Notes under the pieces: model-generated
What the model saw: only the letters and a program-made list of their open reading frames with translations
The model's database searches: none
What the model was told of the DNA's origin: nothing
Source of the DNA: a virus
Direction: 5' to 3' (one strand)
Virus record (IMG/VR): IMGVR_UViG_3300007540_005954
Span: 1-20,606 of that record
DNA length: 20,606 nucleotides
Shown here: piece after piece, positions 3-19,507 of the stretch
Numbering within the stretch: the stretch's first letter is position 1
Layout: each line of letters opens with the position of its first letter
Program-made: the position numbers and the translations under genes

Positions 3-1295
3 AATGTTAACGCTGGCACAACTGCAATGAGCGGAGCAGTTAGATTATCTGAATATATCAAAAGTCAAGGAATTGACACGCCGATTAGTTTTATTGGCTC
101 TCATGTTCAAGCATTGCCAACACAAACTCTAAAGAGGGAAAACAGTATTGATATTGCATTTACTAACGAGGGTGTATATGCTTTGAATAATCTTTTGTCA
201 ACTGACATTAGTAAAGAAATGTTGACTAAAGTTCGTGGTATATGCTATAGGAAAGAAGACGGCACTGTCACTATGAACCCTCCAGAAAAGCTTGTCCCAC
301 AAAGCAGGATGGATATTGATTTGCCCGGATATGCTTGGGACTTGTTACCATTTAACGAAAAACCGTTTGATTTGTACCGATGCCCAATGTGGCATGCAGA
401 GTATGATCATACATCTAGAAGCCCCTATGCTTCTGTTTTCTCTTCTTTGGGGTGTCAATTTAAGTGTGGCTTTTGTATGATTAACATGATCAACAGGGAC
501 GATGACGATGAAATCGGCGTAGCTGGAAATTACAGTATGATGAGATACTGGTCAACTGAACATGTACTTAAACAATTTGACAAGCTAATTGAGATGGGCG
601 TATACAATGTTAGGATTATTGATGAAATGTTTTTGCTTAACCCAAAATACTATATTCCATTGTGCGAAGGTTTAATCGAGCGTGGTTATGGTGAAAAGCT
701 AAGAATGTGGGCATATTCTAGAATTGATACAATCCGTCGTCCGGGGATTCTAAAGCTTGTTAGAGATGCAGGTATTCGTTGGCTTGGCTTAGGTATTGAA
801 AGCGGAGACAGGAATGTTAGACTAGAAGTATCTAAAGGTAAATTCCAAGACGTTGACATTCACGATGTTGTTCGACAAGTAGAGGAAGCTGACATTAATG
901 TAGGCGGCAATTTTATCTTTGGTCTTCCGGGAGACACTATGGAGAGCATGAAAAAGACTTTGGATTTGGCAATTGATTTAGCACCAGCTATGGCGAATTT
1001 CTATGCTTCAATGCCACTTCCCGGAAGCCAATTGTACAAGGACAGTATCAAGAATGGAATAGAAATGCCTGAAAGCTACGAAGCTTACTCGTGGCATTCT
1101 TACGAAACATTTCCTGCAAGCAACGAAAACTTAAGTAACGTTGAGATTCTAAGATTTAGAGATAATGCTTACAATGAATATCATACTTCTCCTAAGTTCT
1201 TATCAAAGATACAAAAGAAATATGGAGATGTAGCAGTACAAAACATTGTCGATAATACTAAAATTAAACTTAAAAGAAGAATTCTGGGTGATTAA
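3..1295 (+). CDS. B12-binding-type radical SAM protein, 5' end outside window
   Basis: The reading frame is open to the window edge (in-frame codons from base 3), and the first ATG at base 27 falls inside what looks like the end of a cobalamin-binding domain (GSHVQALP resembles the GGPHxxxxP segment). I therefore treat it as 5'-truncated rather than starting at 27. The radical SAM signature CxxxCxxC is present, with cysteine codons at 453, 465 and 474; it would hold the 4Fe-4S cluster that cleaves S-adenosylmethionine. Downstream, GLGIESG and GGNFIFGLPGDT match the core barrel of this family. Members do C- or P-methylation, ring rearrangements or other radical steps. Its stop shares one base with the next start (TAATG), so it is co-translated with a ColD-like enzyme. 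I infer it modifies the sugar made by this operon, but the substrate cannot be read from sequence. Confidence 0.85.
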   Translation, partial: NVNAGTTAMSGAVRLSEYIKSQGIDTPISFIGSHVQALPTQTLKRENSIDIAFTNEGVYALNNLLSTDISKEMLTKVRGICYRKEDGTVTMNPPEKLVPQSRMDIDLPGYAWDLLPFNEKPFDLYRCPMWHAEYDHTSRSPYASVFSSLGCQFKCGFCMINMINRDDDDEIGVAGNYSMMRYWSTEHVLKQFDKLIEMGVYNVRIIDEMFLLNPKYYIPLCEGLIERGYGEKLRMWAYSRIDTIRRPGILKLVRDAGIRWLGLGIESGDRNVRLEVSKGKFQDVDIHDVVRQVEEADINVGGNFIFGLPGDTMESMKKTLDLAIDLAPAMANFYASMPLPGSQLYKDSIKNGIEMPESYEAYSWHSYETFPASNENLSNVEILRFRDNAYNEYHTSPKFLSKIQKKYGDVAVQNIVDNTKIKLKRRILGD

Positions 1296-2458
1296 TGAGT
1301 TTACACAAATTTCCTTTAATTAATGATAATATTACACAGTCAGACAAAAAGGTCATTGCCGATTTTGTTTTAAATACTAATCGCTTTACAAATGGTCCAA
1401 AAGTAAAAGAGTTTGAACAAGCTTGGTCTGATTGGCTGGGTGTAAAGTACAGCGTCATGGTTGGATCTGGTGCAGCATCAAACTACATTACGACTTCGAT
1501 TGTACGAGAACTAAAAGGTCAGAAAGGAGAAATCATTGTACCACCAATTGGATGGGTGTCTGATATTTCTTCAGTTATCAATACAGGTTTTTTGCCAGTA
1601 TTTGTCGATGTTGATTTGCGATCAATGGCTATCACAGCAGAGAACATAGAAAAGGCTATCAATGAAAAGACAAAAGCAATTGTTCTTGTTCACGCTTTGG
1701 GATTCAATGGCATCAACGATCAATTAATTGACTTGGCTCGCAAGCACGATCTACTTTTAATTGAAGATTGTTGTGAATCACATGGAGCTACATATAAAGA
1801 CCAAAAGATTGGATCTTATGGAGATATGTCTTGTTTTTCGTTTTACTTTGGTCATCACATGACAACCATCGAAGGTGGCATGCTTTGTACAAATAATAAA
1901 GAAATATACGAACTTGCTTGTATGTTTAGATCCCACGGAATGACTAGAGAAGCATCACAAGAGACGCATGATAAATATGCAAAACCGGACGTTAACCCTC
2001 TTTTTACTTTTGCTGTCCCCGGATACAACATGCGATCTGGAGAAATTAATGCTGTCTTAGGGTTGGAGCAGCTTAAGAGATTAGATTACAATATCGAAAA
2101 AAGACAAGAAAACCTAAATACATGGTTAGCGCATCTAGATGATTCATTATATTATACTGGTTATAATGTTGAGGGTAGTAGCAACTATGCATTGCCTCTG
2201 ATATTAAATGAAGAAAATAATAAAATGCAACAGGTTTGCGAAGTCTTAGAGCAAGAGAGTGTAGAATACAGGATCGGAACAGCAGGCGGTGGAAACCAAG
2301 CTAGGCAACCATATTTGGAAAGGTATGGATATAAAGTTGTAGGATCCCTAAAAGTATCTGACTACATTCACGATTTTGGACTCTATATTGGAAACCATCC
2401 AGATTTAAGCAAAGAAGATATAGTTTACTTGTGCAATAAATTAAATTCTATTAAGTGA
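1295..2458 (+). CDS. ColD-like PLP-dependent sugar 3-dehydratase (DegT/DnrJ/EryC1/StrS fold)
   Basis: The 387-residue length and motifs fit the DegT/DnrJ/EryC1/StrS family: GSGAASN near residues 58-63, the PLP-ring aspartate region IEDCCESHG (156-164), and the IEGG turn (192-195). In aminotransferases of this fold a lysine binds PLP; here the aligned position is histidine (H187 in FGHHM, codon 1853-1855). That substitution is the hallmark of ColD, GDP-4-keto-6-deoxymannose 3-dehydratase, which uses PLP and glutamate to remove the 3-hydroxyl in GDP-colitose synthesis. The neighbouring gene is a GDP-mannose 4,6-dehydratase, which would make the ColD substrate. The start overlaps the upstream stop by one base; the ribosome site is weak, suggesting coupling. 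The exact product sugar is inferred; a related His-type dehydratase acting on another nucleotide sugar is the main alternative. Confidence 0.82.
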   Translation: MSLHKFPLINDNITQSDKKVIADFVLNTNRFTNGPKVKEFEQAWSDWLGVKYSVMVGSGAASNYITTSIVRELKGQKGEIIVPPIGWVSDISSVINTGFLPVFVDVDLRSMAITAENIEKAINEKTKAIVLVHALGFNGINDQLIDLARKHDLLLIEDCCESHGATYKDQKIGSYGDMSCFSFYFGHHMTTIEGGMLCTNNKEIYELACMFRSHGMTREASQETHDKYAKPDVNPLFTFAVPGYNMRSGEINAVLGLEQLKRLDYNIEKRQENLNTWLAHLDDSLYYTGYNVEGSSNYALPLILNEENNKMQQVCEVLEQESVEYRIGTAGGGNQARQPYLERYGYKVVGSLKVSDYIHDFGLYIGNHPDLSKEDIVYLCNKLNSIK

Positions 2459-2463
2459 GACAA

Positions 2464-3471
2464 ATGAAGAAAGCAGTTATTACAGGAATTACAGGCATGG
2501 TTGGTTCTCATTTGGCAGATTATCTGCTTGAGAATACTGACTGGGAAGTTTATGGATTAGTGCGTTGGAATGATAAGATGGACAACATCGAGCATCTTAT
2601 GCCACTAATCAACAACAAAGAAAGGATACATCTTTTAAATGCCGATATTAATGATTTGGCTTCTTTGTTAACATGCTTTGAAGAATCAAAGCCTGATTAT
2701 GTATTTCACTTGGCAGCACAAAGTTACCCAAAAACAAGCTTTTCTGCCCCCCTAGAAACACTAGAAACAAATGTGCTTGGTACTGCAAAGGTGTTAGAAG
2801 CTATCAGGGTTCTTGGACAAAATCCTGTGATCCATGTTTGTGCATCTTCAGAAGTGTTTGGTAGAGTCCCAAAAGAGTTTTTACCAATTCATGAAGACAT
2901 AACGTTCCATCCAGCTTCCCCGTATGCAATTTCAAAAGTTGGTACAGATTTGGTCGGAAGATTCTATGGAGAAGCATACGGTATGACAGTGATGACAACC
3001 AGAATGTTTACTCATACAGGACCAAGAAGGGGAGATGTTTTTGCGGAGTCAACATTCGCAAAACAAATTGCAATGATTGAAGAGGGACTGATTCCTCCCG
3101 TTATTAAAGTAGGTAATTTAGATTCACTTAGAACTTGGTCTGATGTTAGAGATGCAGTACGAGCTTATTATTTATTGGTCACAGAGAATCCACAAGCTGG
3201 AGAGTATTATAACATTGGGGGATCTTATACCTGCACTGTTCGAGAAATGCTAGAACATCTCATTTCATTATCTACTATAAAAGACATCAAGATAGAGGTT
3301 GACCCTGACCGTCTCCGCCCAATTGATGCAGACCTTCAGGTTCCCGATACATCAAAATTTAAAAAGCATACCGGATGGGAACCACAAATTTCTTTTGACA
3401 AAACAATGAAAGATCTGTTAGAATACTGGAGACAACAAGTAAAAACCGGCAGAAGGTTCTTAACTCGATGA
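2464..3471 (+). CDS. gmd: GDP-mannose 4,6-dehydratase-like SDR enzyme
   Basis: A short-chain dehydrogenase of 335 residues with the NAD(P)-binding GITGMVGSH (G8, G11, G14), the Ser-x-Glu catalytic patch in ASSEVFG (127-133) and YxxxK (Y154, K158). The GMD-type segment GPRRGD follows at 186-191, then GNLDSLRTW and a C-terminal TGWEP, all typical of GDP-mannose 4,6-dehydratase, which oxidises and dehydrates GDP-mannose to GDP-4-keto-6-deoxymannose. I chose ATG 2464, which puts the Rossmann motif five residues in as usual; an in-frame GTG at 2455 overlapping the upstream stop is possible. It sits directly after the ColD-like gene, whose substrate it should produce. Substrate assignment rests on the GMD-like middle and C-terminal part; another NDP-hexose is less likely. 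Confidence 0.83.
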   Translation: MKKAVITGITGMVGSHLADYLLENTDWEVYGLVRWNDKMDNIEHLMPLINNKERIHLLNADINDLASLLTCFEESKPDYVFHLAAQSYPKTSFSAPLETLETNVLGTAKVLEAIRVLGQNPVIHVCASSEVFGRVPKEFLPIHEDITFHPASPYAISKVGTDLVGRFYGEAYGMTVMTTRMFTHTGPRRGDVFAESTFAKQIAMIEEGLIPPVIKVGNLDSLRTWSDVRDAVRAYYLLVTENPQAGEYYNIGGSYTCTVREMLEHLISLSTIKDIKIEVDPDRLRPIDADLQVPDTSKFKKHTGWEPQISFDKTMKDLLEYWRQQVKTGRRFLTR

Positions 3472-4208
3472 AAATATTAGTTTTTGGTGAAAGCTGCAAA
3501 GATGTGTTTCATTACGGAGATTGCAGCCGTTTATGTCCAGACGCCCCCGTACCTGTGTTTAGGTTGATTAACACTGTTGAGACTTGGGGGATGGCAAAAA
3601 ATGTTGAAAGGAATCTTGTGTCTTTAGGGGCAAAGGTTGATTTAATTACTAACCAAAACAAGGATACGATAACAAAAACAAGATACATGGACAATAGAAC
3701 CAATCACATGTTTTTGCGTGTCGATGAGAATGACAATTCTTATGGAAATTTATCTCTTAAACAACTAGAGGAAATAGACTTCAAACATTATGATGCTGTA
3801 GTTGTATCAGACTACAATAAGGGGTTTATGTCGGAAGAGGTTTTAAAGGTTATTTCTCAAATGCACTGCACAACCTTTATTGATACAAAAAGGCTTTTGT
3901 CTGATTGGGCAGAGGGGTTTAGTTTCATAAAACTCAATCACAAAGAATATGAAAACAACAGAGAAAATTTTACAGACACTTTAAAGAAAAAGGTAATTCT
4001 TACCAAGGGTCAGTATGGTTCCGAATTTCAAAATAATATCTATTCAGTTCCAACCGTAGAAGTTAAGGATACATCGGGTGCAGGAGATACATTTGTTTCT
4101 GGTTTGTGCTATGAGTATGTTAGGACCAAGGACATAGTTGATGCGATTAAATTTGCTAATCAATGTGCGACAAAGGTTGTACAAAAAAGAGGTGTGAGTG
4201 TCGTATGA
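3468..4208 (+). CDS. Shortened HldE/RfaE-type PfkB sugar kinase
   Basis: The N-terminus FGESCKDVFHYG followed by RLCPDAPVPV is the signature of the kinase half of HldE (RfaE), and the PfkB signature DTSGAGDTF lies at 201-209 with catalytic D207. HldE phosphorylates D-glycero-beta-D-manno-heptose 7-phosphate at O1. At 246 residues it is clearly shorter than the usual kinase domain of about 310-320. Comparing motif order, the stretch after SLGAKVDLIT (52-61) jumps almost directly to TKTRYM, so about 30 residues that normally lie between these strands are missing. Both flanking motifs and the active site are kept, so it is probably functional. The start is in an ATGA overlap with the GMD gene and the end is in an ATGA overlap with the nucleotidyltransferase, so the two HldE activities are encoded as separate, coupled genes. 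Confidence 0.82.
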   Translation: MKILVFGESCKDVFHYGDCSRLCPDAPVPVFRLINTVETWGMAKNVERNLVSLGAKVDLITNQNKDTITKTRYMDNRTNHMFLRVDENDNSYGNLSLKQLEEIDFKHYDAVVVSDYNKGFMSEEVLKVISQMHCTTFIDTKRLLSDWAEGFSFIKLNHKEYENNRENFTDTLKKKVILTKGQYGSEFQNNIYSVPTVEVKDTSGAGDTFVSGLCYEYVRTKDIVDAIKFANQCATKVVQKRGVSVV

Positions 4209-4585
4209 AAAAGATTTTTACAAATGGATGTTTTGATGTTTTACATCGAGGACATTTTGAGTTGTTAAAATATTGTAAGTCTTTGGGATATGTAATTGTT
4301 GGTCTCAATAGCGACTCAAGCGTTAAACAATTAAAGGGTTCTTCAAGACCAATTTTTCCACAAAAAGATAGAGAATTTATGCTCCTTTCTTGTAAATATG
4401 TTGATGAAGTACATGTTTTTGATGAAGATACGCCTCTTGACTTAATAAAACACATAGAACCTGATATAGTAGTTAAGGGTGGGGATTATACAGTCGATAC
4501 TGTTGTTGGAAATACTTTATGTGAAGTTAAAATTTTTAACTACATTGACGGTTATTCAACAACGAAGGTGTTGGAAAAATTATGA
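4205..4585 (+). CDS. HldE-type sugar-1-phosphate nucleotidyltransferase
   Basis: A 126-residue protein of the cytidylyltransferase superfamily. GCFDVLHRGH holds the HxGH nucleotide-binding motif (H14, H17), followed by GLNSDSSVKQLKG (33-45), KGGDY (91-95) and GYSTT (116-120), which is the motif order of the C-terminal half of HldE. That enzyme transfers AMP to D-glycero-beta-D-manno-heptose 1-phosphate; relatives use CTP, and the nucleotide cannot be settled from sequence. An upstream ATG at 4163 is possible but would overlap the kinase by 46 bases and add a cysteine- and lysine-rich tail not seen in the family. ATG 4205 gives a four-base ATGA overlap and places the motif at residue 8, as expected. 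Acts with the preceding kinase. Confidence 0.85.
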   Translation: MKKIFTNGCFDVLHRGHFELLKYCKSLGYVIVGLNSDSSVKQLKGSSRPIFPQKDREFMLLSCKYVDEVHVFDEDTPLDLIKHIEPDIVVKGGDYTVDTVVGNTLCEVKIFNYIDGYSTTKVLEKL

Positions 4586-4917
4586 AATATGTTTTTGATA
4601 TTGATGGTACAATTTGTGATAAAAAAATAAATGATGATTATGACAAATGTTTCCCCTATTTGGGTAGAATAGAACTTATCAACAAGCTTTATGACGAAGG
4701 AAATGTTATTGTTTTTCACACTGCCAGAGGAATGGGAAGGCACAACAACAATCCTCAATTAGCGATTCAAGATTTTTATACTTTGACAGAGGAGCAACTA
4801 AAAGAGTGGGGTGTTAAATACCATCAGTTAATTTTAGGTAAGCCAAGCGGCGACATTTATATAGATGATAAGGGGATTAAAGATGGAGACTTCTTTGCCA
4901 ATGAAATTTGTTCCTAA
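4582..4917 (+). CDS. Small HAD-family phosphatase of a surface-sugar cassette
   Basis: A compact 111-residue HAD protein. Motif I is DIDGT (D6 nucleophile, D8 acid/base), motif II is the threonine in HTARG (T47), and the later GKPSGDIYIDD supplies the lysine (K87) and acidic residues that hold magnesium. There is little room for a cap domain. Small HAD proteins of this type commonly sit beside nucleotidyltransferases and cupins in capsule and LPS loci. In the ADP-heptose pathway a HAD phosphatase (GmhB) removes the 7-phosphate between the kinase and nucleotidyltransferase steps, so a GmhB-like role is attractive, but this protein is shorter than GmhB and not clearly orthologous. It begins in an ATGA overlap with the nucleotidyltransferase. 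Confidence 0.8.
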   Translation: MKYVFDIDGTICDKKINDDYDKCFPYLGRIELINKLYDEGNVIVFHTARGMGRHNNNPQLAIQDFYTLTEEQLKEWGVKYHQLILGKPSGDIYIDDKGIKDGDFFANEICS

Positions 4918-5242
4918 AGGTTGGGGATTTGAAAAATGGATTGTTAACAATGAGGAGTATTGCGGAAAACTGCTTTACTTTGTAAAAGGAAAGCGATGTT
5001 CTTGGCACTATCATAAGCTTAAAGATGAAGTATTTTATATCCAGTCAGGCAAGATGTTGGTTAAGTACTCTGACGGAGACAATATTGATAAAGCAAAAGA
5101 ATTGATTCTAGAGCGAGGAGACAATTTCCATGTATACAGGGGTCTCCGCCATCAAATGCTAGCTCTAGAAGATACAGAATTGTTTGAGTTTTCAACACAA
5201 CACTTTGACAGCGATAGTCATAGAATTGAAAAAGGTGACTAA
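4901..5242 (+). CDS. Cupin-domain protein of the sugar cassette
   Basis: A single-domain cupin of 113 residues. The first cupin motif is visible as SWHYHKLKDEVFYIQSG with metal ligands H36, H38 and E43, and the second around GDNFHVYRGLRHQM with H84. Proteins starting PKGWGxExW with this pattern recur in nucleotide-sugar and capsule loci, where they are presumed isomerases or metal-dependent sugar enzymes; a precise reaction is not known to me. I chose ATG 4901 because the conserved part starts at once (MKFVPKGWG); it overlaps the HAD gene by 17 bases. ATG 4883, with AAGGGG eight bases upstream, and ATG 4865 are alternatives that add 6 or 12 residues. Confidence 0.78.
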   Translation: MKFVPKGWGFEKWIVNNEEYCGKLLYFVKGKRCSWHYHKLKDEVFYIQSGKMLVKYSDGDNIDKAKELILERGDNFHVYRGLRHQMLALEDTELFEFSTQHFDSDSHRIEKGD

Positions 5243-6199
5243 GTGAAACTAGTTGTTATTACAGGTTGTCTGGGCTTTATCGGCTCACACGTTACTAAAA
5301 AATGCCTTGATTTGGGCTGGAAAGTGCTTGGTATCGACAACTTTACTTATGCTGCTAATGAAGATTTGGTTGGTTATTTCTTTGAAAAGTGGGGAGATAA
5401 CTTCGATTTTATCCGCAGTGATATTGCAGACCTTAAATATTTACCAGATTGCGACTATGTAATCAATATAGCAGCCGAAACACACGTTGGAAACAGCATT
5501 ATTGATAGCAAAGACTTCTTAAAATCAAACATAAATGGGGTCCAAAATCTCCTTGATTTGATCAAAGCAAAGCCAAATAACGTGGATAGTCGCCCGATTT
5601 TGTTCCATTTTAGCACAGATGAGGTCTATGGAGACATTGTAGAAGGCGAACACTATGAAACAGACCACCTAAATCCAAGTAATCCTTATTCAGCATCCAA
5701 AGCAGCGGCAGATATGTTGATTACTGCTTGGGCAAGAACCTATGGAATAGAATATATTATCTTTCGTCCAACAAATAACTATGGAGAATATCAATATCCA
5801 GAGAAACTTATCCCATTATCAGTTAAACTTTTACAGCGAGATAAAAAGATTAGACTTCACGACGAAGGAAAGCCGGTTCGTAACTGGTTACACGCTGAAG
5901 ACACGGCAAATGCGGTCATAAGTATCATAAATAATGGGAAAACAAACGAGATTTACAACGTTGCTGGTGGTTTCGAGCAAGAAAACAGGGAAACAGTAAA
6001 GAAAATTATCGAATGTTTCCACGGCAAAGAAGCAAACTGGCTTGATTATGTTGACTTAGGGCACAAAAGAGAAGGTCAGGACGTTAGATACGCACTTAAT
6101 GACGACAAATTACGTTCTTTGGGGTGGAAACCGCAAAAAACATTTAACGAAGAGATACCAAAACTGGTAGAATTCTATAAAAATAACTTTAGATGGTAG
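5243..6199 (+). CDS. RmlB-like dTDP-glucose 4,6-dehydratase
   Basis: An extended SDR of 318 residues with the NAD site TGCLGFIGSH (G8, G11, G14), the catalytic TDE triplet in FSTDEVYGD (125-127), and YxxxK (Y149, K153). The substrate-binding NNYGEYQYPEKLIP and the NWLHxEDT segment follow, which together are characteristic of RmlB: dTDP-glucose to dTDP-4-keto-6-deoxyglucose. It is about 30 residues shorter than typical RmlB. It starts with GTG immediately after the cupin stop, with AAAGGTGA just upstream. It closes the sugar cassette. No RmlA, C or D partner is visible here, so it either relies on host enzymes or on genes outside the window; a related UDP-sugar dehydratase cannot be excluded. 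Confidence 0.82.
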   Translation: MKLVVITGCLGFIGSHVTKKCLDLGWKVLGIDNFTYAANEDLVGYFFEKWGDNFDFIRSDIADLKYLPDCDYVINIAAETHVGNSIIDSKDFLKSNINGVQNLLDLIKAKPNNVDSRPILFHFSTDEVYGDIVEGEHYETDHLNPSNPYSASKAAADMLITAWARTYGIEYIIFRPTNNYGEYQYPEKLIPLSVKLLQRDKKIRLHDEGKPVRNWLHAEDTANAVISIINNGKTNEIYNVAGGFEQENRETVKKIIECFHGKEANWLDYVDLGHKREGQDVRYALNDDKLRSLGWKPQKTFNEEIPKLVEFYKNNFRW

Positions 6200-6654: not shown

Positions 6655-6953
6655 CTTTACTTATTTTCTTTTTAATAGTTTCCGTCGCTTTAAACGGACT
6701 TTTGCTTTGGTACATTAGAAAAATGCTATCCAAACTACTTTATGTTTCAGATAGCATCGGATCTTTATTGGTAACGGCAAAGAACTTTTCTAATCACTTA
6801 GACGGGTTACACGCTATGGAAATGTATTATGGAGATGAAACTCTTGGGTCTTTGATTAAGCACTCAAAGCAAGTTATAGAAGACATAAAAGAGTTTGAAG
6901 ATATCTATGAGCTAACCAATGAAGGGCTATTAGAAGATGAAGAACAAGAATAA
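6651..6953 (+). CDS. Single-pass membrane protein with acidic helical tail
   Basis: A 100-residue protein whose first 22 or so residues form one hydrophobic segment (LLIFFLIVSVALNGLLLWYI), followed by a basic RKM and a soluble, mostly helical region ending in a run of acidic residues. This predicts a membrane anchor with the C-terminal part in the cytoplasm. I accept the TTG start at 6651, which overlaps the upstream stop as TTGA, because the first ATG (residue 25) would remove the whole membrane segment; AAGGA lies about nine bases upstream. The segment YGDETL and FEDIYELT near the middle and end look like conserved motifs of a small phage protein found near gp55, but function is unknown. 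Confidence 0.72.
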   Translation: MTLLIFFLIVSVALNGLLLWYIRKMLSKLLYVSDSIGSLLVTAKNFSNHLDGLHAMEMYYGDETLGSLIKHSKQVIEDIKEFEDIYELTNEGLLEDEEQE

Positions 6954-7636
6954 TGGCGAAACCAAAAAAGAAAAATCTATACTTTACCCAAGAGCACGAA
7001 GATGCAATCGTCAACTATGCTAATACTACTGATATCAAAATAAGAACAGAACTTTATGTAGAGTTTATCGAGCCAGCCTTCAATGAAATGGTCGATAAGA
7101 TTATCTATACTTACAAGTTTACAAACCTTCCAAATATCGACGTTCTCAAAGACGAATGCAAAATCTGGCTTACAACAATCTTGGATAAGTATGATCCAGA
7201 GAAAGGATCCAAAGCCTTTTCTTACTTCTCAGTCATTACAAAGAACTGGTTTATTCACAAGGTAAAGAAAACAACCTTGGAGAATAAAAGAGAAGTTCAA
7301 CTAGATCAAATCCCAAAAAACGTAGAGATTAGACAGTTCACTGTTGTAAACGAATATGAATCAAAAAGATTAGAAAAAGAATTCTGGATGAACTTTTGGG
7401 AAGAAGTAAACTCTTGGGAAACAACCAATATGAAGCCCAACGAAGAGAAAGTCTATGAAGCAATCAGGCTAATCTTTTCCAATCCAGATCGTATAGATAT
7501 TTACAACAAAAAAGCAATCTATTTTTACATCAGAGAAATCACAGGTCTCAATACAAAACAAGTCGTTAACAACTTAAATAAAATGAGAGTAAAATACAAA
7601 GTATTTAAAAGAAGATGGGATCGTGGCGATTTATAA
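6953..7636 (+). CDS. T4 gp55-like late sigma factor
   Basis: The 227-residue protein has a sigma-70 region 2-like segment at about 76-105 (ILDKYDPEKGSKAFSYFS then KNWFIHKV), the part that in sigma factors binds the RNA polymerase beta' subunit and reads the -10 element. A basic, helix-turn-helix-like stretch follows near the C-terminus (REITGLNTKQVVNNLNKMR, 194-212). T4 gp55 is 185 residues and directs host polymerase to TATAAATA late promoters with help from the gp45 clamp and gp33. The tail here ends basic (FKRRWDRGDL) rather than with an obvious hydrophobic clamp-binding tip. Its start shares one base with the upstream stop. It lies directly before the baseplate genes it would be expected to switch on. 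Confidence 0.8.
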   Translation: MAKPKKKNLYFTQEHEDAIVNYANTTDIKIRTELYVEFIEPAFNEMVDKIIYTYKFTNLPNIDVLKDECKIWLTTILDKYDPEKGSKAFSYFSVITKNWFIHKVKKTTLENKREVQLDQIPKNVEIRQFTVVNEYESKRLEKEFWMNFWEEVNSWETTNMKPNEEKVYEAIRLIFSNPDRIDIYNKKAIYFYIREITGLNTKQVVNNLNKMRVKYKVFKRRWDRGDL

Positions 7637-10753: not shown

Positions 10754-13700
10754 ATGTCAGATACAGAGTTTTATTTTAAGCGAAATCCCCCTAATAAACC
10801 AGTAACCGTTAGGTCAACGGTTGTTATTAGATTGCCTCTATTTAATGAGAGTCCGTTTGGACCTGATAATAACAATTATCCATCATTTCAATCGTTGATG
10901 CATAATGGTACGCCTGAATCTTTTGCAACGCTTCTGACTGACGGTGCTTTGAATAAGGCAATTAAGAATGCCTTGTTGTATAATTATTTTGGATATCCAG
11001 TAACCAACATCAAATACGAAAAAAGCCAAAAAGATTATAAAGAAGGATCTTTACAATTTTCTAGCCAAAACAATAATCATCTTAAATTTACTCAATTTGA
11101 AGTTAAAGACGGTCAATATGGTAAGTGGATAGACACTCTCCAAACCGTCCAAGGCATACTTTATCGTGGATATGTATCAACAAAAGGGTTTTATCAATAT
11201 GGCTTGCTGAAACCATTACCAGATTTTAAAGATACAGAACTTGATCTTTATAATTATTTTGATCAAAGTGGTGATCAACAAACTTTTTCTTTCAAAGAAA
11301 TACAAGAAAATTCTGGATTAGAAGTTGATTTTATAAAAGACATATATATGTGTTTGCATGGTTCCAGTGATGGGGTGAACACCCCTCAATCTGTTGGCGG
11401 TTTTAATTCCTTTGTTGAGCCAATCGGTGTCTCTCCAAGAGGCTCTTTGTTTTACGCTGGAACAGGAGATCCAACTGGACCAGACGTTGAAAAAATTGCA
11501 AAGTTTGGGTTGTATGAGAAAAGTTCTGGTGGAAAAAGCTTTGTAGAATACGAAGCTGGAGGAGAAATATCCGATTTTATAAATGATTTTGATTATTTAT
11601 CAGCCATGGCTTCATGGAATAGCCCTTACAATCCTTCTGATAAAACATATGCTAGAGCATGGCTACCAACTGGACCAATCGAAGGGTACTTAACATACAT
11701 TACTTTGCAGCCTTCAAACCCACTTATAAATTACAATCCAAATGAAGGATTTATAGATCTTGCTGCCGGTGTTGATGATGGAGAGGTTATTGGTGATGAA
11801 TCAATTGGGCTGTACGAGGCATCACAAATATCAGTTTCGGACTTTGCACAGGGCTTAGACTTAACTTGGAAAGCACCATATAATCAGCTAGATTCCCTCG
11901 CTTTTTTACTGGGAGAATATCAAAAAACGGATTGGTTTGTTGCATTTCCCGGATACGGTAATAATGGTGCTTCACTTGAAAATAATTATTCAGTAGAGTT
12001 TGGAAAATATAATATTGCATCGATGTATAAATTATCTCCACAAATAGAAGATTTGTTAAAAGTTGACAACTTAGACATCAATCCTCTTGGTGGATTGCAA
12101 TATTATCTAGATGATCCCGCTAGAACATTAAACGCAATATATCCCAGAATATTCAAATATGTTAATGATATTGTACCAACTGCCCCATTACCATCTGTAT
12201 TGCAGGAAGGATCAGTAAAAAATGTTAATATAATTGACCCCAGTAAAATCGGTGGACAACAAATAAAATTCTCAGATATTTTACCAAAATTTAGAATAAG
12301 CGCAGATGATTATTCAAAAAAGTTATACTATAATATACCAGAAAAAACATCTATAGGCTACACTCATGTTATCGGCGATTATAAGATATCTGGTCAAGAA
12401 CTGATAGAAACTATAGGCGAAGATAATAGCATTGACCCAGCAGTTTTGGAGGCTAAAAATAAATTTGTTATTGTTACAAAGACAAAAGAGCAGAGAGATT
12501 TTTTATTAGCTTCAAAAGATGAGTTTGGTAAAGCAGATATAACATATTCTAGTGATCCTAATTTTTTATTTAGATCACTACCCTCTCCTTTAAGTGAAGA
12601 TTTTAGGAAATCACTTATTCAAATAATGGATTCCGGAGCCAACGGTTCCGGTTACCCAGAGGGAGAATTAGACGAGTTACAAAAAGTATATAAATTTTCT
12701 GATTATTTATGTGCGGCACTTTATTTTAGACTACCGCCTCATTACTCAAACGCAAATAAAGACGAAGGAGTTGGTTCACAACTTATTAAACATCAGCCAG
12801 CTACATTAAAGCAAAGGGCAAAAGTTCACCCCAACATTTGGAATGCTGAACCTAAGCTTAGATTTCTAGAAGGAGTGCAGGCTGATATAGAAGGCATATA
12901 TGGCGGTCCTATAGAGGCTGGACAAATGCCATACATTATGTTTTTAGGATCCTATATAAATTCAACATTTGAGAATACAAATATCACCAATACCGCAGAA
13001 ACTTTTGAATATACTACTGGTAATGGGTGGAATGAAAGCACTGTTAATGTACCTTATATAGAAATAGAAACTAATACAGCATCTAATTTTGCTTTTCCTG
13101 TTTGGAGTTATGATTATAAAGCTTTATACGAGGTAGGCTGGAAAGACCTGTCTGACTACGATGAATCCAAAAATCCAGAATTGTCTCAAGTATTCGCATC
13201 AAATCCATCAGTGAAATACATAAAAGACAAAGGGATCCCTGATTGGGTTAGGGGTTTAAGAATATATCCCACACTTGATAATGATACAGTCCTCACAAGA
13301 CCAGATAAAAATTCTATTACAGGCACCAGCGATGCTGACTATATTTTAACAGATGAAGATATTGATGAGGCTGTAAATGGTGCCACTTCAACAGGCGATT
13401 CAATTGTAACAGGATATAAAAACGCAAACACATCATTAGCTAACATAGCGGAAGTTAGTATTGTCAAAAAAATGATGCCAGCAGTGACTTTGGTTATGGA
13501 GCCAAATATTGATGCGGTTTCTCCCGGAAATACTCCATTTAGTATAGAAACATTTGATTCCGAAATTGAAAACTTGTCCTCTAATAACAAAGCGTATGTT
13601 GACATTCGCTATGCTGTAGAAATAGATATTGATGAAAAAGACTTGATTTTGGATATGGTTGGTCAAGGTGTATTTGCTTTAGCGGGAGAAGTAGGAGATT

Positions 13701-16700
13701 ATGAAAAGCTTGGCTTTGATATTGAAAAATTGCTTTTTAAATCTAATGGAAATGTAACATCCCCTAGTTTAATAGACGCTTATGGAGCTTCTGGATTTAC
13801 CTTTGAGGGTGTTTATGGATATGATTTTGGTTCATTTGAAGATTATCTTGGAATAGATGCTGAGTTTTGCCCGACTTTTCCACCCAGTGAAGCAGAACAA
13901 AAGGCAATTCAAGTTTTAGAAAATAGCACTGATGAATATGCCTGCACAAGTTATATTTGTTTGGAGGGAGAAAATGTGGTCTCTGTTCAATTAAAACAGG
14001 GTCCCGGAAAAGACGCAGAAAATTTAGGATACTTAAAAAACAACACAGTTGTAAAAGTGTTGAAAGAGTGGGTAAATGGAAAGGGAGAATTTAATAAAAT
14101 ATTAATAGTTGATGAAACTAGTACTTTGAATGGTCAAGAAGGATACATACATCCAAAATATTTGAGACCAATATATCCAACATTAAGTGTGGATAAGAAA
14201 ATATTTTTTAATCAAATTTTCGATAATACAGACCCAACTAAAAAGTTAACTCTTGCAAATACAAATGTTGTTGCTATGGGAGTATTTGCAGAGACACTAA
14301 TACCTGACTGGTGGAATGATACCAAGATGCTAGAGGGTCAACCATATGAATACAGGCAAGAGGGAGAATATTGGTGTACTGTTGAATTAGATTATGACTG
14401 TATTGTAGACGAGGCAGATCTTAAGACAAAAATCTATGAAGCAAAAATAAAAGGAGTGAAACAGTTATTAGGGTTCTATGGAAAACAATACACTGAAGAA
14501 GACGTAGAAAAGTTAATTAATACTTATTTGGCTGTTAGGGTTGATTATAATTTAGAAGGCACAGAAATGGAGAATGGCTTTCACATTAGTGATAGACCCG
14601 GAGACCCATTAATGTTTTTGGTCAAGGCAGGTGGAATCTACATTAACGCTTTCCCAGATAGGCAAGATTCTTTACAGGAATACAAAAAGAATTCTAATAA
14701 AATAATATCATTAAATACTAAATGGTACCAAACACACTTGCAACAATCAATATATGCTTTAAATAGCTTATATTATGTAATTCTATCATCTGACTATAGA
14801 GTACCTACTTTTAATTTCAAAAAGGAAGCAGATAGAATTTCCTATATTGTTCCTTACTTAAAGAGAATTCTTCTTGCAAATGGATATGAAACGGATTCAC
14901 AGGAAGAAAACATAATAAATATTGGCTTTGACAGCCAGTATAGAGTAACTTTTTTCTCATACAAAGAAAAAGATAAAGAAGAAAAACTGCTTCGCATAGG
15001 ATTTGATTATTTTTCATCTCAAGCACCATTTGTTTTTAAAAACACTATGGCTTTGCTTTATAGACATAGGCAAATAAAAGATCCAACTTTGAGAACAAGT
15101 TGGAAGAAATTGTTTAATCAATGGCTACCAGACCCAAAACCAAAGATTGTTCCAAAATCAGAAGGTGGCGGAGGATACCCATCAGATTCCAGATGTAGTC
15201 CAAGTTTAAATTGGAACCCACCACCGCTCAGTCAAATATGGGAACAAGTCGCTGCTCGACTAGATGAAATTTTAGATCTAGATCCAAGATATGATCTAGG
15301 GTCTTTTAGGTTTAATTTGTTAGAGTATTTCCCACCATGCCCTAAGCCCCCTGCCGGTCGTGGCTTGACAGTGATGAGGTTACTATCAGAAATCGAAGGG
15401 GAAACTAAAGTTTTTGATAATTTAGATATATTAAATAGCGTCCAAGCTGAAGTTGATAGAATAGGACAATATGTCGGAGATTTTATGTCCTCTCAGCAAG
15501 CAATGGATGAAATAAGGTCTAAAATATTTACTTTAGATGATTTGTATACATTTTTATTAAATTATATCTCACCAGAACTTTTGTACAGCAAAATATGTAA
15601 ATGTTTCCTTGATTTACTTGACATTGATTCTATTGGGGTCCCAAATCTCGAAATTAATGCAACAGGTGGTTCTGGCGGATTAAATCTAAAACCCTCTAAT
15701 ATAGGTAAAGATCCAAAAGAATTGTATGATGTACAAGGACCAGAAGCAGAAGCTAATCTCTTTGAAGAAAGAGAACAAATTCAAGCTGAAGACTTGTTTT
15801 GCTCTTTTTGTTTCAGAGTACCCAGTGTTTTTCTTAGATTACCATCAACAGATATCTTGAGTGTTTTAATAGATGCATTTAAAAAATTGTTAGAATTTGC
15901 TCTAGCACAAATTTTGCTGCAACTAATAGCCTCCTTGCTGGACATTCTTCTTACTTGCCCTGATTTGGAATGCGCCCCCGGAGCAAGTAAGGTCAGGGAT
16001 TATGGGTCACAAGACATAGGAAATCTTTTTGATAATAATACGCCAGATAATCTACCAGATTTTTTAACAAATTGTGGTTTGCTGATAGACGGTACAAATA
16101 TCACAGAAGAAGATGCAACAAATATGCTCAAAGAAGTTTCTGATAAATTAACAACGTCAGAAGTTTTAGGCTTAATAAGTGGAACACCTACTTCAAAATC
16201 TTTAAAAGTTGTTAAAAGAGTTGTGTCAAATTATCCAAACATTAATGACATTTTTACAGACATCGGAGTTATAGAAAACTTTTTTGCATGCGCTGGAGAT
16301 AAATTAGAACCAACTGTTTTTGATGATTTGGAAAACGACAATCTTGAAAATGTTGCAGACCCACAAATATGTTTTGATTTTAATGAGTTGTCTAGGAACA
16401 ATATCTTGGATAAATGTGGTAGTTTACCAAACCAACTAATAAACATTATTAAAGACAGAAATTTAAATCACGACATTCAAAAATATAAAGAAATCGCAAA
16501 ATTTATTAGAGATAATGACAATCTATCATCGCAAATGCCATCTTTGTTTGAAGACGGAAAAGGAACACAAGGGCTACTTTCTTCGTTAAGTACCCCAACA
16601 GTTGATAAAATAATTGAAGAAACTATTGATACAATCTCTATCCCAATTGCAACCGAACTAACAAAGGAAAGTGTAAATTTAACCAGACCAGAAGGACAGG

Positions 16701-19507
16701 TGCTTGTCAAACAAAATGCAAGATTAAATATACTTTACGAGAAAGGAATATCGGATTTTATTGCAACTGCACCATTTAGAGAAAATGGTGCAGACAATTT
16801 TACAGGCTTATATGAAAAGTTAGAAGAGCCAATTGTTAACCCTGATACTAAAAAAGAGGAATATCAAAAGCAGCTACAAAACATTAAAGATATAATGTCA
16901 AATATATACAACCATATATATTTTGACCCAAATAATTTTAGAGTGAGTATATCTGTTGGCGAACAATCAGAACCCTCGTCAACAGCCATGATAAAGTTTA
17001 ATCCACCAGCAGAAGACCAAACTACTGGGGAACCAGTATACACAAACAACTACCAAGTCTATGTTTATAATAATGTACCATTTTATTCAACTCCGATAGA
17101 GCTTAGTATAAACGGCGGAGCAAATACAATACCAGAAGAAATTAATAATTATATTCAAAATTTTGAGCTAAAAAATACAGACATCCCAGAGCAAGCACAG
17201 GTGTTTGGAAATATAATTACTAATGGCATTAAAAAAATTATAGAAGAAGCAAACTTAGAAGAATCGGAAGTGAGTGAGCAATTAGAAAACTTAAAATCAA
17301 TATTTGAAACAGATTTATATATTAACTCTTTGGGTTCAATTATCGGAGGGATTACCGATGTTGTTTCAACTGGAAATATAATGAGCGAATATACGCTTGA
17401 TCGCCAAAATGAAGCGTTATCTTCTCCGGTTTTTGCAGGACTGGTCCTAGCAACAGCATACGCTTTTGCTGCTAGTCCACTTGGGCAGGCTGTTTTTGGT
17501 CCCCTTGGCGTGGCAGCAATTGCTACTATGTCAAATGAAGATATCTTTGAGAAAATGTACCCAAATTATACAAAAAAACAACTTCAGCATCTAAAATTAG
17601 CTCCAAAGGTTGTAAAAGAAAATAATGGCACTGCAAAAGTTCATGGTCTTATAGATTTTGATAAAGTAAAGGCTGCTGCAAAAGAATATTATAATTTTGC
17701 AAAACAAACAGATGAAAATTCGGAGGCATTAAACATGGGGCAACTTGCCATACTTAATGGGCTAATATCCGCAGTTTGTCAACTTTTTGCTGGAGAAATA
17801 TATTCTAAAAGCGTTTTTACATTAGCTCATTATCCAAAAGAGTTGTTTGCAGAAGAATTAAACGGAAGTCTGATATCAAAATATGCTACACAATTAATGG
17901 TAAGATATTTTAATAATACTGTTGTGGAAGCAGGTGTTATAAACGAAGATTTAGACTGGGAAGAGTGGAATCAGTTTTCCGCTGCATGGCAAACTGTTAT
18001 TTCTAGGTTAATATCTGAAAAATCAGAATTTACAAATTTTAATACAAATGGTGCTCTTCCCGGTCTTCCGGGAGAAAGCACATCAAAGGGAGATAATGTT
18101 GTTGGGGCTGGCGGGGTTGATGGAAAAATATATGATGTTGTAACTGGAAAAGAGGAAGTAATTAATTCTTGGATTAAAGCAACAGAATATTATGTAAAAC
18201 AAAATGCGTATGACCCACTAAAGTTTGTTAAAAGTAGATTAAAAAATATAAAATATTACAATGAGTTAGCCGCAGATCCAGAGACAAATCCGTTTGATAC
18301 AATAGCATACCCAAAGGTTTTAGAAGTTCACGATGGAATAACTAGTGATTTTTCTTTTACAGATGAAAGCAATTTAGATGAATTAACTGGGGAAGAAATT
18401 CAAGAAATATACGATATTTTACCAACAATTCAGCCAGATCAAATTAAAAACTATTTCAACACTAAAAGCGACAGTTCACTCTTTTCAGCAGGTGTTACAG
18501 TCACTGACCCCCTCGCTCCCATAAAAAGTCATTTTGCAAATGGAAAGTTTTTCTATCAATATTATTTTAGAATAGAAGACTGGGAATCAGAAGAGGAAGC
18601 AGCAGAAAATGATGGTATATATGTAGAAAATTTAGTTCTTAGAAAACCTAAAGGTAGTGCTGAAAGTGACTATAATCTGATGGGAGTTGTTAATAGGGAC
18701 GGCTTATTAAAAATAATTAATAATATGTACCCAGCCGGAGAAAACTATGGCTTGACTGATTGGCAAACAAAAGAGCCTATAAATCGATTTTTTAAGTCTA
18801 TCAAATATGGTATAAGATTTTGCTATGGATCAATTCAATCAGTTAATACAGAAATTGCTGGTCAAACAAATAAAACAAAAGAATTGAACAATAGTATTAA
18901 TACTATTTTTAACACTATGCACCAAAATCAAAAATTGAAAGAGTTTTGTAAAAAAGAAAAGGTGTTTAAAATTACAGAATTAGATGTTAATTTGACAGAA
19001 TACACAGAAGAAGATATTCCATACTTATTACAACAAAAAAGAATAAGTCACATTATACCGATTAATTCACAAGAAACAGCTAATATCAAAGATTTTGATG
19101 AATTTAGTTTTTCCCCTGCTGCTTTTTTTGAGGAAGATGGTGCTGGCGAAGCTTTAATTATAGATTGGTCGCAAAACAGAAAACAATTAACTACTATTCT
19201 TTTTTCAAAAATTAATGGCACAGAAGAAAATTCACAAAATTTGGAATTTAAAACTATGTTCTTCTATTGTCTTCCGGTGCCACTACTTATTAGCTTGTTC
19301 TTAACGTTTAATGCTTCAATTGTATCAACTGATAGAAATGTTGAACAAGCGTTTTCCAGCACAAAGGAAGTAATAAAAGATATTTTTATGTCTATTTATA
19401 ACACTAGGGGTCGTGAATATTGGAAACAAACGCCAAAATCAATTGCCAAAAAAGGTGGACCAATTGGCATGGCCGTATCATCAATTCCTGATAAAAATGA
19501 TTTATAA
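10754..19507 (+). CDS. Giant virion structural protein in the baseplate block, 2917 residues
   Basis: One uninterrupted frame of 2917 codons that I cannot assign to a named T4 protein. Visible parts: an N-terminal 1050 residues rich in Asn, Asp, Tyr and Gly with no recognised domain; an SH3b-like domain at about 1069-1140 (QLKQGPGKDAENLGYL, then GYIHPKYL); a cysteine-rich region with C1529, C1615/C1617, C1683/C1686, C1735/C1740 and C1774; long helical stretches from 1560 on; and hydrophobic segments at about 1701-1734 (amphipathic), 2225-2259 and 2835-2858. It is far longer than any T4 baseplate protein (gp7 is about 1030 residues). Position between spike and gp25 implies a virion baseplate or tail-tip role. 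The ribosome site is weak (AGGA, 10745-10748). No frameshift or internal duplication was noticed. Confidence 0.75.
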   Translation: MSDTEFYFKRNPPNKPVTVRSTVVIRLPLFNESPFGPDNNNYPSFQSLMHNGTPESFATLLTDGALNKAIKNALLYNYFGYPVTNIKYEKSQKDYKEGSLQFSSQNNNHLKFTQFEVKDGQYGKWIDTLQTVQGILYRGYVSTKGFYQYGLLKPLPDFKDTELDLYNYFDQSGDQQTFSFKEIQENSGLEVDFIKDIYMCLHGSSDGVNTPQSVGGFNSFVEPIGVSPRGSLFYAGTGDPTGPDVEKIAKFGLYEKSSGGKSFVEYEAGGEISDFINDFDYLSAMASWNSPYNPSDKTYARAWLPTGPIEGYLTYITLQPSNPLINYNPNEGFIDLAAGVDDGEVIGDESIGLYEASQISVSDFAQGLDLTWKAPYNQLDSLAFLLGEYQKTDWFVAFPGYGNNGASLENNYSVEFGKYNIASMYKLSPQIEDLLKVDNLDINPLGGLQYYLDDPARTLNAIYPRIFKYVNDIVPTAPLPSVLQEGSVKNVNIIDPSKIGGQQIKFSDILPKFRISADDYSKKLYYNIPEKTSIGYTHVIGDYKISGQELIETIGEDNSIDPAVLEAKNKFVIVTKTKEQRDFLLASKDEFGKADITYSSDPNFLFRSLPSPLSEDFRKSLIQIMDSGANGSGYPEGELDELQKVYKFSDYLCAALYFRLPPHYSNANKDEGVGSQLIKHQPATLKQRAKVHPNIWNAEPKLRFLEGVQADIEGIYGGPIEAGQMPYIMFLGSYINSTFENTNITNTAETFEYTTGNGWNESTVNVPYIEIETNTASNFAFPVWSYDYKALYEVGWKDLSDYDESKNPELSQVFASNPSVKYIKDKGIPDWVRGLRIYPTLDNDTVLTRPDKNSITGTSDADYILTDEDIDEAVNGATSTGDSIVTGYKNANTSLANIAEVSIVKKMMPAVTLVMEPNIDAVSPGNTPFSIETFDSEIENLSSNNKAYVDIRYAVEIDIDEKDLILDMVGQGVFALAGEVGDYEKLGFDIEKLLFKSNGNVTSPSLIDAYGASGFTFEGVYGYDFGSFEDYLGIDAEFCPTFPPSEAEQKAIQVLENSTDEYACTSYICLEGENVVSVQLKQGPGKDAENLGYLKNNTVVKVLKEWVNGKGEFNKILIVDETSTLNGQEGYIHPKYLRPIYPTLSVDKKIFFNQIFDNTDPTKKLTLANTNVVAMGVFAETLIPDWWNDTKMLEGQPYEYRQEGEYWCTVELDYDCIVDEADLKTKIYEAKIKGVKQLLGFYGKQYTEEDVEKLINTYLAVRVDYNLEGTEMENGFHISDRPGDPLMFLVKAGGIYINAFPDRQDSLQEYKKNSNKIISLNTKWYQTHLQQSIYALNSLYYVILSSDYRVPTFNFKKEADRISYIVPYLKRILLANGYETDSQEENIINIGFDSQYRVTFFSYKEKDKEEKLLRIGFDYFSSQAPFVFKNTMALLYRHRQIKDPTLRTSWKKLFNQWLPDPKPKIVPKSEGGGGYPSDSRCSPSLNWNPPPLSQIWEQVAARLDEILDLDPRYDLGSFRFNLLEYFPPCPKPPAGRGLTVMRLLSEIEGETKVFDNLDILNSVQAEVDRIGQYVGDFMSSQQAMDEIRSKIFTLDDLYTFLLNYISPELLYSKICKCFLDLLDIDSIGVPNLEINATGGSGGLNLKPSNIGKDPKELYDVQGPEAEANLFEEREQIQAEDLFCSFCFRVPSVFLRLPSTDILSVLIDAFKKLLEFALAQILLQLIASLLDILLTCPDLECAPGASKVRDYGSQDIGNLFDNNTPDNLPDFLTNCGLLIDGTNITEEDATNMLKEVSDKLTTSEVLGLISGTPTSKSLKVVKRVVSNYPNINDIFTDIGVIENFFACAGDKLEPTVFDDLENDNLENVADPQICFDFNELSRNNILDKCGSLPNQLINIIKDRNLNHDIQKYKEIAKFIRDNDNLSSQMPSLFEDGKGTQGLLSSLSTPTVDKIIEETIDTISIPIATELTKESVNLTRPEGQVLVKQNARLNILYEKGISDFIATAPFRENGADNFTGLYEKLEEPIVNPDTKKEEYQKQLQNIKDIMSNIYNHIYFDPNNFRVSISVGEQSEPSSTAMIKFNPPAEDQTTGEPVYTNNYQVYVYNNVPFYSTPIELSINGGANTIPEEINNYIQNFELKNTDIPEQAQVFGNIITNGIKKIIEEANLEESEVSEQLENLKSIFETDLYINSLGSIIGGITDVVSTGNIMSEYTLDRQNEALSSPVFAGLVLATAYAFAASPLGQAVFGPLGVAAIATMSNEDIFEKMYPNYTKKQLQHLKLAPKVVKENNGTAKVHGLIDFDKVKAAAKEYYNFAKQTDENSEALNMGQLAILNGLISAVCQLFAGEIYSKSVFTLAHYPKELFAEELNGSLISKYATQLMVRYFNNTVVEAGVINEDLDWEEWNQFSAAWQTVISRLISEKSEFTNFNTNGALPGLPGESTSKGDNVVGAGGVDGKIYDVVTGKEEVINSWIKATEYYVKQNAYDPLKFVKSRLKNIKYYNELAADPETNPFDTIAYPKVLEVHDGITSDFSFTDESNLDELTGEEIQEIYDILPTIQPDQIKNYFNTKSDSSLFSAGVTVTDPLAPIKSHFANGKFFYQYYFRIEDWESEEEAAENDGIYVENLVLRKPKGSAESDYNLMGVVNRDGLLKIINNMYPAGENYGLTDWQTKEPINRFFKSIKYGIRFCYGSIQSVNTEIAGQTNKTKELNNSINTIFNTMHQNQKLKEFCKKEKVFKITELDVNLTEYTEEDIPYLLQQKRISHIIPINSQETANIKDFDEFSFSPAAFFEEDGAGEALIIDWSQNRKQLTTILFSKINGTEENSQNLEFKTMFFYCLPVPLLISLFLTFNASIVSTDRNVEQAFSSTKEVIKDIFMSIYNTRGREYWKQTPKSIAKKGGPIGMAVSSIPDKNDL

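Follow-up and report, generated by a model that had tools for sequence, protein, structure and literature searches.

The 20,606-bp virus record IMGVR_UViG_3300007540_005954 (the window, i.e., the whole stretch of DNA analyzed) is a fragment of a marine-type phage, a myovirus with baseplate-like genes downstream, and encodes on its plus strand two adjacent enzymes of nucleotide sugar metabolism: a DegT-fold protein (1295..2458, 387 aa) and a 4,6-dehydratase (2464..3471). Judged by sequence comparison, both probably catalyze consecutive steps on a nucleotide-linked heptose, i.e., formation of GDP-3,6-dideoxy-4-keto-heptose from GDP-heptose as in Campylobacter jejuni HS:5, likely followed by C-branching as in case of yersiniose. 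An initial annotation had placed the two genes at the start of a colitose-type hexose pathway proceeding from GDP-mannose. Its proposal that the phage encodes the first two enzymes of a pathway to a 3,6-dideoxy sugar nucleotide, one of them a 3-dehydratase dependent on pyridoxal/pyridoxamine 5'-phosphate (PLP/PMP) rather than an aminotransferase, agrees with the histidine replacing the PLP lysine (H-type) and with the tree position of the DegT-fold protein. The product now predicted is a 3,6-dideoxyheptose, possibly C-branched, instead of a colitose-type hexose, because of the placement of the dehydratase, the operon context in bacteria and the separate clade of the DegT-fold protein.

The open reading frame (ORF) of the dehydratase (PF16363, 260 bits) spans 2455-3471 from a mechanically assigned GTG start at 2455; the true start is probably the ATG at 2464, 5 bp past the stop of the DegT gene. 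This short gap and the overlap of the DegT start with the stop of the preceding radical S-adenosylmethionine (SAM) gene (TAATG) suggest a single operon. The dehydratase possesses the catalytic Ser-Ser-Glu and Tyr-x3-Lys residues and belongs, as initially annotated, to the superfamily of GDP-mannose 4,6-dehydratase (GMD). The label GMD is good to superfamily depth only: the protein scores 182 bits against the gmd equivalog TIGR01472 (cut-off 415 bits) and groups with the GDP-heptose 4,6-dehydratase 7US5 of C. jejuni. The latter is also the best-matching structure (385 bits, 53.6 % identity), as compared to 155 bits and 33.5 % identity for Escherichia coli GMD, and 40 alignment columns are fixed in the heptose group for a residue never present there in GMDs. 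In a tree built by quick search, the window protein clusters with 7US5 and enzymes from bacterial heptose operons (SH-aLRT 94), apart from GMD, while the GMD of Synechococcus phage S-CAM7 clusters with that of E. coli (69.8 % identity). In Campylobacter, a GDP-heptose 4,6-dehydratase and a PLP-dependent C3-dehydratase together form GDP-3,6-dideoxy-4-keto-heptose (PMC10440746).

Bacterial gene neighbourhoods, drawn from the best 80 genome loci and with heptose genes recognised by short motifs in many of them, likewise point to heptose (L numbers designate the compared loci). An hddA-type kinase motif is found within 8 kb in 19 of the 20 bacterial loci whose dehydratase is at least 60 % identical to that of the window. 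In a Lachnospiraceae locus (L118), the order is hddA, DegT, dehydratase, gmhA and an hddC/gmhB fusion; family and structure searches assign GmhA (147 bits), GmhB (154 bits), an HddC-like protein (112 bits) and an HddA-like protein (best structure 3k85), all of them under the NCBIfam equivalog cut-offs. The SAR116 locus L110 contains genes for RmlC, E1-alpha, E1-beta, DegT, short-chain dehydrogenases/reductases (SDRs), dehydratase, hddC and hddA. Phages L003 and L014 share this order, with kinase and nucleotidyltransferase genes replacing hddC and hddA, and in Synechococcus phages SynMITS9220M01 and Bellamy the dehydratase (54 %) is encoded near a kinase and a nucleotidyltransferase, the kinase of SynMITS9220M01 matching HddA with 287 bits. 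Heptose genes are found nearby in relatives (L118, L110, SynMITS9220M01); the window itself contains only an HldE-like kinase and nucleotidyltransferase. The occurrence of the gene pair in bacterial GDP-heptose operons, together with the affiliation of the dehydratase, speaks against GDP-mannose as the substrate. A locus of Rhizobium sp. Leaf262 (L153, 4102-12514) combines heptose genes, a radical SAM gene, transketolase halves and a DegT homologue, without a match to the 4,6-dehydratase of the window; it may represent a 3-deoxyheptose variant.

The DegT-fold protein (PF01041, 263 bits) carries the histidine recognised in the initial annotation: H187 aligns with H188 of ColD, the residue mutated to N or K in structures 3b8x, 2r0t and 3gr9. 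Histidine is present at this position in 80 of 80 IMG/VR relatives, a count of little weight, as it is biased by one search seed spanning the motif. Asp158 and Ser182 (the PLP Asp/Ser) and Asn245 are conserved as well. The closest solved structures are ColD entries (191 bits, 31 % identity), and the predicted fold also matches ColD best (TM 0.85, E 8e-31). Since the loop around H187 (residues 186-191) is modelled with a predicted local distance difference test score (pLDDT) below 50, no active-site claim is drawn from the model. A 61-row tree, likewise from a quick search, separates lysine aminotransferases, RfbH/E1, ColD, clade B (S-CAM7-type phages) and clade A (the window and bacteria), the node uniting clade A and the bacterial sequences having an SH-aLRT of 97. 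The initially expected grouping with ColD rather than aminotransferases is therefore borne out as to the latter, from which the protein is apart; it falls outside ColD, in an H-type clade of its own with bacterial and phage homologues. ColD forms a long basal branch, so that its exact placement is unsure. The distance of this clade from ColD and from the S-CAM7-type enzymes accompanied by a true GMD and a GDP-fucose-synthase-like protein disagrees with a colitose-type hexose as product. The protein is supported as an H-type PLP/PMP 3-dehydratase, not an aminotransferase, and is predicted to act as GDP-6-deoxy-4-keto-heptose 3-dehydratase. Its clade is uncharacterised, and enzymatic evidence for any member was not found in the literature searched. 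In the same tree, L107 (NZDU01000046.1), filed as a metagenome-assembled genome of Pacearchaeota, is sister to phage L012 and probably a mis-binned phage. Six phage contigs of IMG/VR (L031, L039, L045, L049, L057 and L068) each encode two different H-type 3-dehydratases, of which one resembles ColD and the other RfbH/E1 (SFYPAHH motif).

The possible branching step is suggested by thiamine diphosphate (ThDP)-dependent enzymes encoded beside the DegT genes of relatives. After removal of near-copies at 90 % identity, the only correction made for kinship, ThDP genes accompany the DegT gene in 15 of 16 distinct clade-A phage loci, abutting it directly or lying at most 4.5 kb away, versus 2 of 36 in clade B (Fisher 5e-10). 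Different ThDP families fill the same position, i.e., E1-alpha/beta, acetolactate-synthase type (L009, L012) and transketolase halves (L017, L020). Decarboxylase, alpha-KADH2 and transketolase are described as the ThDP groups accepting ketones and forming branched sugars (PMC12247030), the two-subunit E1 type being known from further cases (PMC4753412, PMC10338323); all three types known for C-branching occur by DegT genes of the clade. Among the 80 bacterial loci, 47 have a ThDP match at a distance of up to 6 kb and 40 a radical SAM gene at up to 8 kb. The contig L082, whose gene order matches that of the window, has E1-alpha and E1-beta genes directly ahead of the radical SAM and DegT genes. 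A contig near-identical in the radical SAM gene and extending the window leftwards was not found, the best being L082 with 75 %; by analogy to the latter, the phage of the window may carry ThDP genes beyond the contig edge.

In the proposed pathway, the product of 2464-3471 would 4,6-dehydrate GDP-heptose, and the product of 1295-2458, with His187 replacing lysine and PMP regenerated from glutamate, would remove the C3 hydroxyl group to yield GDP-3,6-dideoxy-4-keto-heptose. The latter chemistry has been demonstrated for C. jejuni HS:5/HS:11 (PMC10440746). The activated heptose would probably be provided by the downstream kinase, nucleotidyltransferase and HAD phosphatase in place of bacterial hddC/hddA. 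A ThDP carboligase encoded left of the contig edge, proposed from relatives only, may then extend the 4-keto sugar by a 2-carbon unit in the manner of YerE or two-subunit E1-type enzymes, and the B12-type radical SAM enzyme may introduce one further modification, before the finished sugar would be placed on a glycan of the host envelope or of the virion. The complete sequence of 4,6-dehydration, PLP-dependent 3-deoxygenation, ThDP-dependent branching at C4 and a B12 radical SAM step, as a module for a C-branched 3,6-dideoxyheptose shared by marine phages and diverse bacteria (SAR116, Verrucomicrobia, Nitrospira, Rhizobium, others), is put forward tentatively, with somewhat less than even confidence. 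A description of C-branched 3,6-dideoxyheptoses as a sugar class was not found in the literature searched.

Several observations weigh against the proposed heptose pathway and its branching. The DegT-fold protein shares only 31 % identity with ColD, and its heptose use is deduced from neighbouring genes rather than by comparison with a close homologue of known function; for the characterised C. jejuni heptose 3-dehydratases, 62–67 % identity to their counterparts from E. coli O55 and Yersinia has been reported (PMC10440746), which makes them much closer relatives of ColD. Furthermore, ThDP genes are not inside the window, which is cut within the radical SAM gene, no ThDP genes accompany the DegT/dehydratase pair at locus L005, and a ThDP match within 6 kb is lacking from most Lachnospiraceae loci. 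The kinase and nucleotidyltransferase of the window are of HldE type instead of HddA/HddC, and remain below the NCBIfam cut-offs. The classical HldE pathway employs the beta-anomer and ADP, so that GDP or ADP could be the nucleotide here. The lack of nearby ThDP matches in most Lachnospiraceae also favours formation of an unbranched 3,6-dideoxyheptose, where GDP-3,6-dideoxy-4-keto-heptose is merely epimerised and reduced and the ThDP and radical SAM genes of relatives serve another sugar. C. jejuni HS:5/HS:11 provides the exact precedent, and genes for an RmlC-like epimerase and a GDP-fucose-synthase-like SDR are common in the clusters. Nevertheless, this route is considered rather unlikely, in view of the position of ThDP genes of different families next to DegT in nearly all distinct clade-A phages.

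Conversion of GDP-mannose by a GMD and ColD to GDP-4-keto-3,6-dideoxymannose, from which colitose-type hexoses derive, would accord with PF16363, H187, ColD as best PDB match of the DegT-fold protein and GMD being a family related to the dehydratase; GDP-mannose is also commonly available in hosts. It is nonetheless improbable, as the dehydratase is far nearer to the heptose enzyme and departs from GMDs in the 40 diagnostic columns, the bacterial operon context is that of heptose, and the phage set of true GMD, GDP-fucose-synthase-like and ColD-like proteins resides in another clade. In addition, the ColC-like epimerase/reductase sought to complete that pathway is absent from the ORF list and from the Pfam and NCBIfam matches of the window, which is a contig fragment. 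Similarly doubtful is that dehydratase and DegT-fold protein each have a sugar substrate of their own and that their genes adjoin solely through shuffling of phage glycan cassettes: the genes are indeed 4–10 kb apart in phages L002, L004, L010 and L014, and some bacteria possess the DegT gene without a close dehydratase gene, but the two genes lie side by side in unrelated contexts, i.e., in the window, L005, L082 and Lachnospiraceae/Selenomonadaceae loci L112, L117, L118, L122 and L126. Function as a CDP-sugar 3-dehydrase of E1/RfbH type or as a C4 aminotransferase is highly improbable. RfbH is the best NCBIfam model of the DegT-fold protein (221 bits versus a cut-off of 423), but ColD is the best match by fold and sequence, histidine stands for lysine, and the E1/RfbH assignment was rejected on the separate tree clade and the incomplete [2Fe-2S] cysteine set, in that, of the E1 cysteines, only Cys192/193 are matched, whereas the positions of Cys251, 253, 257 and 261 are not Cys in the protein of the window.

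The heptose pathway proposed for the window resembles the GDP-3,6-dideoxyheptose pathway of C. jejuni HS:5/HS:11/HS:45, consisting of 4,6-dehydratase, C3-dehydratase, C5-epimerase and C4-reductase (PMC10440746), in the predicted reaction pair and the 54 % identity of the 4,6-dehydratase to 7US5. It differs in the distant C3-dehydratase, the phage location, the addition of ThDP and radical SAM genes in relatives and in that no epimerase/reductase was identified in the window. Common to the ColD/colitose pathway of E. coli O55 and O111 are the histidine at the PLP-lysine position, the fold and the incomplete cysteine set, in contrast to the heptose-type partner, the separate clade and the absence of a GDP-mannose-specific partner from the window. 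The clade-B phage S-CAM7 encodes GMD, GDP-fucose-synthase-like and ColD-like proteins consecutively (L189, KU686213.1 164047-167105). Its phage-borne H-type 3-dehydratase shares 38 % identity with that of the window, but its partners are a true GMD, sharing 70 % identity with that of E. coli, and a GDP-fucose-synthase-like gene, and ThDP genes are absent; the S-CAM7 set is a better candidate than the window for a phage colitose-type pathway. As for yersiniose A and related sugars (YerE; AviB1/AviB2, Pau11/Pau12, KbDH; PMC12247030, PMC4753412), relatives of the window have a ThDP carboligase gene by the genes for a 3,6-dideoxy-4-keto sugar nucleotide. The known branched sugars of this kind derive from CDP-hexose, other deoxyhexoses or pentoses, and a heptose acceptor or a phage carrier was not found in the literature searched.

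The gene order on the plus strand is radical SAM, DegT, dehydratase, kinase, nucleotidyltransferase, HAD, cupin and RmlB-like, followed by virion-type genes. The B12-type radical SAM protein (3..1295; PF04055, CxxxCxxC at residue 151) lacks its N-terminus at the contig edge, its full-length homologue in L082 having 506 aa; the best NCBIfam model, HpnJ, scores 128 bits, far under the cut-off. The PfkB kinase (3468..4208, 246 aa, GAGD motif) resembles HldE domain I, of heptose-7-phosphate kinase type (TIGR02198, 130 bits, cut-off 345; phrog_8133 matched over full length), and the nucleotidyltransferase (4163..4585, HxGH motif) resembles HldE domain II (TIGR02199, 147 bits, cut-off 181.5). They are followed by a small HAD-IIIA phosphatase, possibly acting on a sugar phosphate (4582..4917; weak TIGR01689/HAD-IIIA match, phrog_1238, DxDGT), and a cupin protein (4865..5242; PF07883, phrog_7851) conserved by the kinase/nucleotidyltransferase pair in related phages. 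The split HldE-like genes (3468-4585) together with HAD and cupin (4865-5242) form a phage cassette kept beside the heptose-type dehydratase. The RmlB-like NDP-sugar 4,6-dehydratase (5243..6199; STDE motif; TIGR01181, 296 bits, cut-off 365) probably serves a separate sugar, being also present in some clade-B phages. Promoter and terminator scans of the window yielded counts at chance level. Further downstream, the protein of 6953-7636 has only matches of about 30–35 % among phage records, and in the baseplate region, 10754-19507 is one ORF of 2917 aa, for which tblastn against 50,697 phage records gave no match.

In pelagimyophages, the host-recognition regions reportedly contain lipopolysaccharide-related genes, rfaE is listed among the lipopolysaccharide genes of these phages, and radical SAM cassettes distinguish two related pelagimyophage genomes in this region (PMC7029224). 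By analogy, this precedent fits a role of the putative heptose genes in alteration of the host surface. Genes for phage glycans commonly receive names such as "GDP-mannose dehydratase" or "aminotransferase"; in the present case these are misleading, the likely substrate being a heptose, and the neighbouring genes of relatives point toward carbon-branched sugars. If the proposed pathway holds true, marine phages would carry and spread rare, probably uncharacterised envelope-sugar pathways, possibly altering receptor recognition during infection, and the module of DegT, ThDP and radical SAM enzymes found in many uncultured bacteria would become a concrete, assayable target.

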